Source of the DNA: a bacterium | GTDB lineage: Bacteria; UBP15; UBA6099; DSWB01 | Assembly (NCBI GenBank): GCA_020061125.1 | Contig: JAGUYV010000192.1 | Location: 1-11,118, forward strand | Length of the DNA: 11,118 bases | Direction of reading: 5' to 3' | Part shown: positions 4,777 to 7,980 of the stretch, piece after piece | Position numbering within the stretch: position 1 is the stretch's first letter | Layout of the letters: every line of letters begins with the position of its first letter | Notes under the pieces: model-generated | What the model was told of the DNA's origin: nothing | The model's input: only the letters and a program-made list of their open reading frames with translations | Databases searched by the model: none | Translations under genes and position numbers: made by a program

Positions 4777-4793
4777 CTGGTATGTGTGAAAAA

Positions 4794-4883
4794 CGGAGGA
4801 GGTGGGATTCGAACCCACGTCGGTGCGGTTAACACCGAAACGGTTTTCGAGACCGCCGCCTTCAGCCGCTCGGCCACCCCTCC
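4794..4883 (-). tRNA. tRNA-Ser, anticodon CGA
   Basis: Read on the minus strand, the gene is 90 bases with a complete cloverleaf. The acceptor stem pairs GGAGGGG (4877-4883) with CTCCTCC (4795-4801), including one G-U pair, and the discriminator is G at 4794. The anticodon stem is GCGGT/ACCGT around the loop CTCGAAA, and anticodon CGA is at 4849-4847, reading the UCG codon. A long class II variable arm (stem CGGTG/CACCG) confirms serine. The T arm is GTGGG-TTCGAAT-CCCAC. No CCA is encoded, so the tail must be added after transcription. It has its own strong promoter just upstream. Confidence 0.97.
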
Positions 4884-4899
4884 AAAACCAAACATCCCG

Positions 4900-4928
4900 A
4901 TTATAACTTGCTTTTTTCTAAACGTCAA
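4900..4928 (-). promoter_or_regulatory. Near-consensus sigma-70 promoter of tRNA-Ser
   Basis: On the minus strand, TTGACG (4928-4923) and TATAAT (4905-4900) are separated by exactly 17 bases. The -10 box ends 16 bases before the first base of the tRNA, leaving a leader of only about ten bases. Five of six -35 bases and all six -10 bases match the consensus. Confidence 0.85.
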
Positions 4929-4952
4929 TTTCTTGTTTTCCGTAATATCGCT

Positions 4953-4980
4953 AGGAGCAAGGTAGGAGCAAAAGGAGCAA
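4953..4980 (+). repeat. AGGAGCAA repeat, three units
   Basis: AGGAGCAA occurs at 4953-4960, 4964-4971 and 4973-4980, with steps of 11 and 9 bases. It lies about 25 bases upstream of the tRNA-Ser promoter, at the edge of the AT-rich region. I see no coding explanation. Confidence 0.55.
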
Positions 4981-5100
4981 GATAAAGGAATGAGTACTTC
5001 ATGGCATTTTGGATTGTAGCCAATTAAAAGGGCGGCAACTGGTCTCAGTAGTGTAAAATCAGTTAAATGTATCTGAAAACAATCAAGGGAAGCCTTGATG

Positions 5101-5129
5101 TTGAACGGAGGCTGGTTTTCTTGTAATAT
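5101..5129 (+). promoter_or_regulatory. Possible promoter of the TPR gene
   Basis: TTGAAC (5101-5106) and TAATAT (5124-5129) are 17 bases apart. This gives a leader of about 120 bases before the TPR start. The match is moderate and the region is AT-rich, so chance is possible. Confidence 0.3.
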
Positions 5130-5257
5130 ATGTTGAAGATGCAGGCTTTCACGAAATCCGACTATATGAGCCACTATGTTTTCGGCAATTTAGCCCCCGG
5201 TGGAAGCCAAAAGGAATTTTGACATGGAGAATGTAGGATGAAAGGAAAGGTTCATAT

Positions 5258-6376
5258 TTGAGTATATCAAAATACTATTTATCCTTTACGCTCCAAGCAA
5301 CTTACTTTTTATTTTGGTGCATTTTATTTATTGTCTCCGCATCTTTTTCCATCTATGCAAATTACGAGTGTGAGAGCACTGTTGAATGTTTACAAAAAGC
5401 GAATAAAGCGATGGAAGACTATGATTTAGATGCGGCAATTGCATATTGGGAAAGAGATATCGAAATCGAAGAAGAGAGCGGCGTTGAGTTTGAAGGGGAT
5501 GTGAATCCTGTCTTTCATCATGCAGGCCACATGTTAGTAAATTGCCTTTTTGAAAGAGCGACGGTTTTTTCGCATTTTAATTTCCCGGAACAAGCCATTG
5601 ATGATTATACACGCATTTTAGAGGTACAAGATACCTACCCAGTCAATGAACACGAAATTCCAGAACCTGCCATATACTCATTTCGAGGATGGGAGTTGCT
5701 TACGATTGCTGAATATGAAGACGCAATTGCTGATTACGATTCTTCAATTGAAATTATGGAAGAATTAGACTCCCCCAAATTACATGTAATGCTTGCAGAT
5801 AATTATATGAATCGTGGCTATACATATTATTTCTTAGGGGAGGTAGAAAAGGCTAAAAGCGATATTGATATTTCGTTGGAACTCAATGATGATTCAGTGC
5901 TTGCAAAATGTGTTGCCATTGAAGTGTCATTGTCATCAGATTCCCCGGAATCTATATTGGATATGATGAACCGGGATTATCAAAAATGCGAAAATATGGA
6001 CGAAGACAGTGTTTATATCAAAGCATTTCGACTTATATATGACGAGTTGCTTGACACAGGGTCTTTCCCTGATATAGATATCATTTCAGAAAAGGCAAGT
6101 GAAGCATTTGACAACGATAACTTTGAGGAAGCTGCGATATTGTATAAAACTATCAATTATTTGGAACCTGAAAATCCCGTATTTACATATAACCTTGCTT
6201 TGAGCTTCGCACATATTGATGATAACAACGAATCATTGCGTTATTATTACAGATATCTATATCTTGACCCAGACACAAATGAACGAGACGAAATAATGGA
6301 TATTATTAATGAACTTCAGCCCCAAGAGACCATGTATGACCTCGCGCAAATGTATAAGAAAGAAATGGGAGAGTAG
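5258..6376 (+). CDS. Exported TPR-repeat protein of unknown function
   Basis: The 372-residue protein starts at TTG 5258, preceded by GGAAAGG (5244-5250) at seven bases. The only ATG in the same frame nearby (5231) is followed at once by a stop. Residues ~8-34 are hydrophobic (FLFWCILFIVSASFSIYA), which suggests a signal peptide cut near residue 34 or a membrane anchor. The rest is helical and very acidic, with TPR-type helix pairs: about 47-70 (KAMEDYDLDAAIAYWERDI), 92-122 (FPEQAIDDYTRIL), 138-170 (YEDAIADYDSSIEIM), 180-210 (RGYTYYFLGEVEKAKSDI), 275-305 (FEEAAILYKTINYLEP) and 308-338 (NESLRYYYRYLYLDP). TPRs bind partner proteins, so an envelope scaffold role is likely, but no partner is visible. 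The gene is far AT-richer than its flanks (6241-6300 has 19 G/C of 60), suggesting transfer. It ends ten bases before an IS-type inverted repeat. Confidence 0.85.
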   Translation: MSISKYYLSFTLQATYFLFWCILFIVSASFSIYANYECESTVECLQKANKAMEDYDLDAAIAYWERDIEIEEESGVEFEGDVNPVFHHAGHMLVNCLFERATVFSHFNFPEQAIDDYTRILEVQDTYPVNEHEIPEPAIYSFRGWELLTIAEYEDAIADYDSSIEIMEELDSPKLHVMLADNYMNRGYTYYFLGEVEKAKSDIDISLELNDDSVLAKCVAIEVSLSSDSPESILDMMNRDYQKCENMDEDSVYIKAFRLIYDELLDTGSFPDIDIISEKASEAFDNDNFEEAAILYKTINYLEPENPVFTYNLALSFAHIDDNNESLRYYYRYLYLDPDTNERDEIMDIINELQPQETMYDLAQMYKKEMGE

Positions 6377-6385
6377 GATTTCTCG

Positions 6386-6424
6386 TGGCCTGCCCCCGAA
6401 ATGAGTACCAGTTAGAATGTTAGG
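6386..6424 (+). repeat. Left terminal inverted repeat (IS3-like)
   Basis: It begins TGGCCTGCCCCCG and ends GAATGTTAGG. It aligns with the reverse complement of 7786-7825 at 31 of 40 positions with one gap (hand alignment). From memory, IS3-family ends often start TGACCTGCCCCC, so the outer bases fit. It starts ten bases after the TPR stop codon. Confidence 0.7.
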
Positions 6425-6470
6425 TTTTGACTTTGCCTTTGTTTTAGCTTTTGATTTTGGCTTTGCATTT
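6423..6470 (+). repeat. Degenerate hexanucleotide repeat GNYTTT, eight units
   Basis: Eight units follow in exact six-base phase: GGTTTT, GACTTT, GCCTTT, GTTTTA, GCTTTT, GATTTT, GGCTTT and GCATTT. On the minus strand this puts Lys at every second codon in the transposase frame. The array begins at the inner edge of the left inverted repeat and runs into the end of the transposase remnant. Confidence 0.6.
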
Positions 6471-6632
6471 TCGATGGAAGCGGAAGGGATTGGAACTTCC
6501 ATCGCTTGAGGTGAACTGGGCGGGAGTGAGATAGCCCAGGGAGCTGTGCGGCCGGAACTCATTATACTCCCCCCTCTATGTTTCCACCACTTGTCATGCC
6601 TCACGCACTGAAGTAAAGATTTCGCGGTTGGC
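6444..6632 (-). pseudogene. C-terminal remnant of an IS3-family OrfB transposase
   Basis: The minus strand encodes, in one frame, ANREIFTSVREA, a stop, QVVET, a stop, then RGEYNEFRPHSSLGYLTPAQ and a short tail ending at TAA (6444-6446). YNEFRPHSSLGYLTPAQF is the hallmark end of IS3-family integrase-type (rve) transposases. The internal stops are TGA at 6594-6596, where Arg (CGA) is expected, and TAG at 6576-6578, where Trp (TGG) is expected. Each is one transition away, with no frameshift. The catalytic Glu region, normally about ten residues before CLNREIF, and everything N-terminal to it are absent. The sequence stops matching at about 6632. It cannot be functional and marks one end of the element. 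Confidence 0.85.
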
Positions 6633-6715
6633 GGGAATGCCCCCAGGTTATATCCCGAGGTATCACAGCATCAGCGACCATGAAGTAAAAATCCGTAAAA
6701 ATCAACATATCAATA

Positions 6716-6764
6716 TATGGACTCGGGTGTTGGCTTTCAGGGTGTCTGAAAGTCAGCATACCGA
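6716..6764 (+). repeat. Direct repeat, copy 1, upstream of mntA
   Basis: It begins TATGGACTCGGGTGTTGG and ends with GGTGTCTGAAAGTCAGCATA plus CCGA. It matches 7691-7740 in the same orientation at about 42 of 50 positions with one gap. The copies lie ~120 bases before mntA and ~160 bases after hepT, so they bracket the toxin-antitoxin pair. Confidence 0.75.
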
Positions 6765-6812
6765 AGCCAGCCCACCTTGCCGCCTGATGGTTATCGTGTC
6801 GTTGTCCATCAG

Positions 6813-6842
6813 TTGCGGTTTCACGCGATTTGCAGGTATAAT
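6813..6842 (+). promoter_or_regulatory. Likely promoter of mntA-hepT
   Basis: TATAAT at 6837-6842 is a perfect -10 hexamer. TTGCGG at 6813-6818 is a partial -35 box at 18 bases. The start codon is 43 bases downstream of the -10 box, which fits a short leader. Such pairs are usually autoregulated, but I see no clear operator here. Confidence 0.45.
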
Positions 6843-6884
6843 AAAAACACTTGAAAAGCTCATTCGGGCCGAGGGGGAGATTTT

Positions 6885-7196
6885 GTGCAGGAAATTGTTA
6901 AAAAGAGAATAAGTGAGCTGGCCGCGATCTGCGAGAGACACGGTGTCATCCGTCTCTGGCTGTTTGGATCGGCGGCGGCAGCGGATTTCAATGCTGAAAC
7001 CAGCGATCTTGATTTTCTGGTGGAATTCAGGGCCATGCCCCCCGGAGCTAAGGCGGATAGTTTTTTCGGCCTCCAGGAAGACTTTCAGACTTTGTTCGGA
7101 GTGCCGGTTGATCTTGTGGAGCCGGGTCCTATCAGAAATCCCTATTTTCTAAAATCTGTCGAGCAGACTCGGGTAAAACTTTATGAAGCGGCGTGA
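6885..7196 (+). CDS. mntA: MntA-type minimal nucleotidyltransferase antitoxin
   Basis: The 103-residue protein is a minimal nucleotidyltransferase, the antitoxin of MNT-HEPN (type VII) toxin-antitoxin systems. Known members use ATP to attach AMP units to a Tyr of the HEPN toxin and so silence it. The signature is LFGS (G28, S29), eleven residues, then SDLDFLVEF (D41, D43). The third metal-binding Asp is D76 in VPVDLVEPG. GS-X11-DxD is one residue longer than the GS-X10-DxD often quoted, but I recall it in other family members. It starts at GTG 6885, five bases after AGGGGGAG. Its last 14 bases overlap the start of hepT, so the two are translated together. Both catalytic motifs are intact, unlike the surrounding transposase. 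Confidence 0.88.
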   Translation: MQEIVKKRISELAAICERHGVIRLWLFGSAAAADFNAETSDLDFLVEFRAMPPGAKADSFFGLQEDFQTLFGVPVDLVEPGPIRNPYFLKSVEQTRVKLYEAA

Positions 7197-7533
7197 AGCC
7201 TGCAAATATCTTTTTGACATTCATGAGGCGTGTATTCTGATTGAGCAGTTTGTTTCCGGCAAAACTCTTGAAGAGTATAGTACCGATCCGTTGCTTCGTT
7301 CCGGTGTGGAACGCCAGTTTGAAATAATCGGCGAGGCTCTGAATCAGGCATTGCGCATTGATTCAGATCTTGCGGAGAGCATAACGGAGCCGGAGCGCAT
7401 CATCGCTTTCCGAAACAGGCTGATCCACGGTTATGCTTCCATCGCCGATGATGTCGTATGGGGCGTGATTGAAGAAAAATTGCCAGTTTTGCATCGTGAA
7501 GTTAAAACATTGATGGATAAGACTGCTCCATAA
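7183..7533 (+). CDS. hepT: HepT-type HEPN toxin (DUF86)
   Basis: The 116-residue all-helical protein is a HEPN ribonuclease-type toxin partner of the preceding antitoxin. The catalytic RX4HXY motif is complete: R77-NRLI-H82-G-Y84 in AFRNRLIHGYAS. In studied pairs, Arg and His cut RNA and Tyr is the residue modified by MntA. The conserved helix with RQFEIIGEALNQAL (44-57) and the ending VVWGVIEEKLPVL (91-103) are typical of DUF86. ATG 7183 lies inside the end of mntA (14-base overlap), which favours coupled translation and keeps antitoxin first. It is full length with no damage. Nothing in the sequence shows which RNA it targets. Confidence 0.9.
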   Translation: MKRREACKYLFDIHEACILIEQFVSGKTLEEYSTDPLLRSGVERQFEIIGEALNQALRIDSDLAESITEPERIIAFRNRLIHGYASIADDVVWGVIEEKLPVLHREVKTLMDKTAP

Positions 7534-7690
7534 ACCCTTCCCGTTTCCGGTTAAATCCTCCTTTATTCAAGTTTCCAACAGGGTCGCCAGACTGCGGTCC
7601 CGTTTCGTGCCTGTCGTGTTATTCGGGCGCCAACCGATCCAATAACGACACTGCGGAAATGCAGGGAATATGCCAACACCTGCGGCCATG

Positions 7691-7740
7691 TATGGACTTG
7701 GGTTTCGGTTTTTCAGGGTGTCTGGAAGTTGGCATACCGA
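7691..7740 (+). repeat. Direct repeat, copy 2, downstream of hepT
   Basis: It begins TATGGACTTGGGTTTCGG and ends with GGTGTCTGGAAGTTGGCATA plus CCGA. It is the partner of 6716-6764, same orientation. The differences are mostly C/T and A/G transitions, as expected of decayed copies of one sequence. Confidence 0.75.
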
Positions 7741-7758
7741 CCCCATTAGTGTATGCCA
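7730..7758 (+). repeat. Inverted repeat overlapping direct repeat copy 2
   Basis: TGGCATAC (7730-7737) and GTATGCCA (7751-7758) form a perfect 8-bp stem with a 13-base loop. A third arm, TATGCCAAC at 7669-7677, can pair with GTTGGCATA at 7728-7736 instead, so two alternative hairpins compete. Copy 1 of the direct repeat lacks the partner arms. Confidence 0.5.
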
Positions 7759-7785
7759 TTATGATGACCCAAAGACCTATAGTAT

Positions 7786-7825
7786 CCTAACATTCCGGGT
7801 GGTTCTCTTTCCGGGGGGCAGACCA
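7786..7825 (-). repeat. Right terminal inverted repeat (IS3-like)
   Basis: Read on the minus strand, it begins TGGTCTGCCCCCC and ends GGAATGTTAGG, mirroring 6386-6424. This edge corresponds to the end of an IS3 element that precedes orfA. Beyond it the sequence changes to the DUF4160 leader. Confidence 0.65.
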
Positions 7826-7849
7826 AAACGGTCTCCGGCTAAAATTTCC

Positions 7850-7921
7850 ATGCCGGAAATTTGCAGGTTCTATGGAATCGCAATCAACATCTACTTCAAT
7901 GAACCACCAGAATCCGGATAG
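7850..7921 (+). pseudogene. Fragment of a DUF4160 gene
   Basis: Only 23 codons remain: MPEICRFYGIAINIYFNE and a short run to TAG. The start is the characteristic opening of DUF4160 proteins, which I recall as MPEI-RF-GI-I-MYF-DHNPPHFH. Here the HNPPHFHAEY part is lost after NEPPE, so the gene is broken. DUF4160 genes often sit beside DUF2442 genes in toxin-antitoxin-like pairs. The next bases (7921-7956) can be read as ELNRWNEDPVIM, faintly like a DUF2442 segment; I regard that as weak. It lies 25 bases outside the right inverted repeat of the element. Confidence 0.6.
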
Positions 7922-7980
7922 AATTGAACCGTTGGAATGAAGATCCCGTAATCATGTAATTTTCAATAAGAATAGCTGTT

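Follow-up and report, generated by a model that had tools for sequence, protein, structure and literature searches.

A MntA-HepT-like toxin-antitoxin pair between IS3-type ends: a probable insertion sequence relic in a tRNA-adjacent island

Background

How does a toxin-antitoxin (TA) operon come to lie between the two ends of an IS3-family insertion sequence, where the transposase genes should be, and does such a unit move? The question is raised by a unit of 1440 bases (positions 6386 to 7825) in the stretch of DNA analysed here, called the window, which has 11,118 nucleotides and is an entire 11 kb contig of a draft genome that is 79% complete and consists of 513 contigs. A sequence-only reading of the window had proposed that the transposase core was replaced by a TA cassette, giving a non-autonomous element that a related IS could mobilise and that the TA pair would hold in place.

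Elements of a comparable kind have been described. Mobile insertion cassettes (MICs), for example MIC231A1 of Bacillus cereus and mic-qnrD (PMC3913671), resemble the window in having IS inverted repeats around a passenger gene and no transposase gene. TnSod9, one of several Tn3-family transposons with TA pairs (PMC7157771), is like the window in that a DDE transposon carries a HEPN-MNT pair; the Tn3-family transposons are replicative and have both transposase and resolvase, whereas the window has IS3-family ends without transposase. Our search of open-access papers found no IS3 derivative with TA cargo.

Results and discussion

The two edges are ends of one kind of IS3 element

The features of the unit are listed in Table 1. 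Pairwise alignment of the two edges gives 31 matching columns out of 40 with one gap, and the ungapped core (6393-6424 against 7786-7817) has 78% identity. The score of this alignment, 21, was reached in none of 5000 shuffles of both edges (maximum 15), which bears out the inverted repeats of 39 and 40 bases noticed in the sequence-only reading. In a blind comparison of wider flanks (500 by 400 bases) 5 of 1000 shuffles reached the same score; despite this, the match is secure because of its context, namely the OrfB remnant and the TA pair that it encloses. The repeats are imperfect and begin with 5'-TG (here TGG...), as do the 20-40 base terminal repeats of the IS3 family.

Table 1. Features of the IS3-TA unit (positions in the window)
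Feature	Position	Strand	Remarks
IS3 right inverted repeat (IRR)	6386..6424	-	tip TGGCCTGCCCCCGAAA... at 6386; form as in the IRR of plasmid IS3 relatives (TGACCTGCCCCC)
Degenerate (TTTGCC)n simple-sequence tract	6424..6472	.	inside IS3 3' end
IS3 OrfB (DDE transposase) C-terminal remnant	6483..6632	-	two internal stop codons
Direct repeat D1a	6713..6769	+	13-pair hairpin GTTGGCTTTCAG-GGTGT-CTGAAAGTCAGC
Putative TA promoter TTGCGG-18-TATAAT	6813..6842	+	conserved with G006
MntA-like antitoxin (MNT nucleotidyltransferase, GSX11DXD)	6885..7196	+	GTG start; PF01909
HepT-like toxin (HEPN RNase, RX4HXY = RNRLIHGY)	7183..7533	+	PF01934; 14-base overlap with mntA
Direct repeat D1b, copy of D1a, hairpin decayed	7688..7745	+	
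IS3 left inverted repeat (IRL)	7786..7825	-	tip TGGTCTGCCCCCCGG at 7825; 86% identity to G002 IS3 left end

Just inside one edge, and in the correct orientation as had been claimed, lies the C-terminus of an OrfB transposase of the rve/rve_3 DDE type that is characteristic of the family. The Pfam rve_3 match (6522-6632, minus strand, E 2e-10) covers the C-terminal part only, and positions 6629-6483 align at 53% with residues 316-364 of a 374-residue Burkholderia IS3 transposase. OrfB thus survives merely as its last ~50 residues, and of the orfA-orfB frames of an intact autonomous IS3, orfA was not found in the unit. What is recognisably IS3 is limited to ~40 bases at the left end and ~245 bases at the right end, with D1a, the TA operon and D1b following one another in between.

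To compare the ends, we located those of the elements at seven plasmid loci whose IS3 genes resemble the remnant. Several of these relatives have the left end TGAYCTGC[C/T]CCCC and the right end TGACCTGCCCCC, the left one being one base longer; the window ends, TGGTCTGCCCCCC and TGGCCTGCCCCC, share this form, including the longer IRL. The IS3 elements with TGAYCTGCCCCC ends, for instance those on plasmids of Burkholderia, Sphingobium and Deinococcus (L138-L144), agree with the window in end form, OrfB C-terminus and overall length, but they carry orfA-orfB, of which the window element retains the OrfB tail alone. The unit is indeed close in size to a complete IS, as originally remarked, since the intact relatives that we measured span 1200-1418 bases.

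A second comparison is provided by another genome of the same order, G002, in which three contigs (C88, C79 and C105; L027, L028 and L124) start within one IS3 left end, each with ~100 bases of the IS. This left end is 86% identical to window positions 7785-7820 and leads into a reading frame starting MKKKRYTEEQIVRILSEAREG, which we read as a putative IS3-type orfA start. Three contigs beginning within the same left end mean that this unassembled IS3 element is present in G002 three times or more. Across seven genomes, a search pattern combining the two ends matched nothing but the two window edges and the three G002 ends. The possibility that the two edges come from different IS families was checked and does not apply, given the end form shared with the plasmid relatives and with the G002 left end; judged by sequence, both edges belong to a single kind of IS3 element and are oriented as its ends should be.

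The passenger is an intact operon under purifying selection

The operon in the interior is intact, as first described: both frames are open and both are matched by Pfam. Its layout is that of the type VII HepT-MntA system (PMC7641770), with MNT upstream of HEPN on the same strand, the two genes overlapping, and PF01909 paired with PF01934. The published motif is RX4HXY, which receives AMP, with GSX10DXD (PMC7641770). RX4HXY is found in the HepT of the window, whereas the MntA motif, GSX11DXD, is one residue longer than the published one, as it is in 72 of 82 sampled loci; a further difference is that both proteins score under the NCBIfam equivalog cut-offs. By analogy, a type VII mode of action is the most likely one for the pair.

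The same pair recurs at 80% DNA identity in G006, a genome of the same order and of another family. Homology is confined to window positions 6811-7548: it opens two bases before the conserved promoter and closes just past the HepT stop codon. The differences fall mostly at third codon positions, and dN/dS is low (~0.07 for mntA by NG86; 0.11 by NG86 to 0.18 by YN00 for hepT), which places the pair under purifying selection.

No IS3 match and no IS3 ends were found around the pair in G006, where it adjoins a fragment of a tyrosine-recombinase gene. The occurrence of the pair without IS edges in a relative indicates a self-contained unit that travels independently of IS3, although it does not tell how the pair reached the window. 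Among 80 loci with MntA relatives, none has the TA pair enclosed by IS3; IS3 genes lie near the pair in two of the sampled loci (L081 and L099) and do not enclose it.

The G006 locus (L026, 4598-5565 and 7255-7903) contains, besides the homologous pair, another and different MNT-HEPN pair no more than 2.5 kb away; a broken tyrosine recombinase gene separates the two. In a viral contig (L156, 1863-4345), an MNT-HEPN pair stands directly after two tandem tyrosine-recombinase genes and before Rhs-like genes.

A direct repeat surrounds the TA pair

A feature that had been overlooked earlier is a direct repeat of 57 bases that flanks the TA pair inside the IS3 remnants, its two copies, D1a and D1b, being in the same orientation. 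Their similarity score, 35, exceeds the highest score among shuffles, 22, and the hairpin formed by D1a is strong (z -4.5). These repeats could be taken as the boundaries of a nested unit (6713-7745) which would have entered an already deleted IS3, the hairpins acting as ends of the IS200/IS605 or REP type. The position of the repeats and their similarity far beyond chance speak for such a unit; the D1b hairpin is weak, however, the TA pair of G006 has no D1-type repeat, no matching transposase was found nearby, and no other copy of D1 was found in the source genome, in 386 sampled genomes or among viral contigs. We consider this origin very unlikely. The same searches led us to reject D1 as a dispersed repeat; it is covered by no Rfam family, and by eye it does not match an attC integron site, as the GTTRRRY core is missing.

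The unit lies once in an AT-rich island beside tRNA-Ser

The unit belongs to an AT-rich island (~4885-7980; 35-50% GC against 60-65% around it) that begins beside tRNA-Ser (4793-4884) and is bounded on the other side by a radical SAM gene. Apart from the unit, the island holds a gene for a 372-residue TPR protein (5258-6376, 37% GC) and non-coding debris. The TPR gene differs in GC content from the IS3-TA segment, which suggests that the two have separate origins. In G002 and G003 the hisF orthologues are found without tRNA-Ser and without the flanking genes, and the same-order genomes share the locus no further than hisF.

Since the window is an entire contig of a fragmented metagenome bin, and assemblies commonly break or join at IS elements, IS3 ends misjoined to a TA pair by the assembly might also be imagined. 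Nevertheless the edges occur once in the bin, leaving no second copy to misjoin, and GC is smooth (about 46-50%) across the IS3-TA segment, with genes of 60% GC on either side; an assembly chimera is therefore very improbable.

Complete copies of the unit and its parent IS were both sought. In the source genome, within its 79% completeness, neither edge has a further copy, the only matches being (TTTGCC)n simple sequence, and no other IS3 element with the window ends was found. Such (TTTGCC)n tracts occur in non-coding DNA of contigs C81, C183, C325 and C417 (L002-L007), some of them at contig ends. The whole element has no copy in 193 genomes, and neither edge has a close match in the plasmid and viral collections. 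As to the parent, six same-order genomes contain no complete copy, the similar left ends at the G002 contig ends being all that was recovered; G003 and G006 do contain intact IS3 genes, which were tried as candidates and are not close.

A relic or a mobile cassette

The junctions with the flanking DNA, TTCTCG/TGG and CCA/AAACGG, have no abutting 3-5 bases in common; the target duplication is absent, as had already been seen. The proposed replacement of the transposase core by a TA cassette holds in so far as the core is missing and a segment including the TA pair is in its place, between ends of one IS3 kind. The proposed mobility, like the proposed stabilisation by the TA pair, finds no such support: the unit is present as a single copy, with no target duplication, no IS3 with the same ends (in a 79% complete genome), a decayed OrfB and no second case of a TA pair between IS3 ends among relatives. 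For these reasons we prefer, with a probability of roughly two in three, to see the unit as an IS3 relic, lying in the AT-rich island next to tRNA-Ser, that lost its core and received a TA-bearing segment instead; the TA pair would be functional and the ends would be out of use.

The order of events would then be as follows. An IS3-family element in the island would have lost its transposase genes, leaving behind the short left end and the right end with its decayed OrfB tail and IRR. The interior would have been replaced by a segment of ~1.1 kb bearing a self-contained MntA-HepT operon with its own promoter. By analogy with type VII modules, HepT would be an RNase toxin, which MntA would inactivate through AMP transfer to the tyrosine of RNRLIHGY, and the pair may owe its retention to a value of its own in addiction or defence. 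The IS3 ends would be a relic rather than an active vehicle, and the most likely reading of the unit is that of a one-off fossil within a small genomic island.

Some of the evidence weighs against a fossil. Intact IS3 relatives have inverted repeats that look no better matched than those of the window, which lends no support to an element long dead, and the unit is nearly as long as a complete IS; further copies or the parent IS could be missing from so incomplete and fragmented a genome; moreover, the relic reading accounts neither for the entry route of the TA pair nor for the direct repeat that flanks it.

The alternative is a non-autonomous element of the MIC type, with IS3 ends and a TA pair in place of the transposase; a related IS3 transposase would move it in trans, and the pair would make it difficult to lose. 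IS ends around passenger genes without a transposase gene are the anatomy of a MIC, and here an intact operon is enclosed by two ends of a single IS3 kind, in the correct orientation and at the distance of a complete element; the three contig ends of G002, with their similar left ends, imply that the lineage has transposases of this sort, MICs have been described in other IS families (PMC3913671), and TnSod9 gives a precedent for the cargo (PMC7157771). The good match of the ends, on a par with intact IS3 relatives, and the incomplete genome leave this alternative some probability. Against it stand the single copy, the lack of a target duplication and of any empty site seen, the absence of copies in the genomes searched with the whole element, the 0 of 80 relative loci and the OrfB tail, which is a decayed remnant and no clean replacement. 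From MICs (PMC3913671) the window differs in its IS3-type ends, the transposase remnant left inside, the missing target duplication and its presumed immobility. We regard a MIC-like element as unlikely, and somewhat more doubtful is the complete proposal of an IS3 derivative with a type VII pair in place of its transposase, mobile in trans and resistant to loss through addiction. With MICs (PMC3913671) and the HEPN-MNT pair of TnSod9 (PMC7157771) as precedents, even a mobile unit would combine known kinds in a new way, as judged on the open-access literature.

Conclusions

Had the unit moved in its entirety, it would be an addiction module packaged in little more than a pair of IS ends, intermediate between insertion sequences and selfish TA cassettes. 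In its present state, preferably read as an IS3 relic, it is an example of the accumulation of IS relics in a tRNA-adjacent island, and it indicates that HEPN-MNT pairs travel as compact units of promoter plus operon, placed in an IS3 relic here and beside an integrase gene in a relative.
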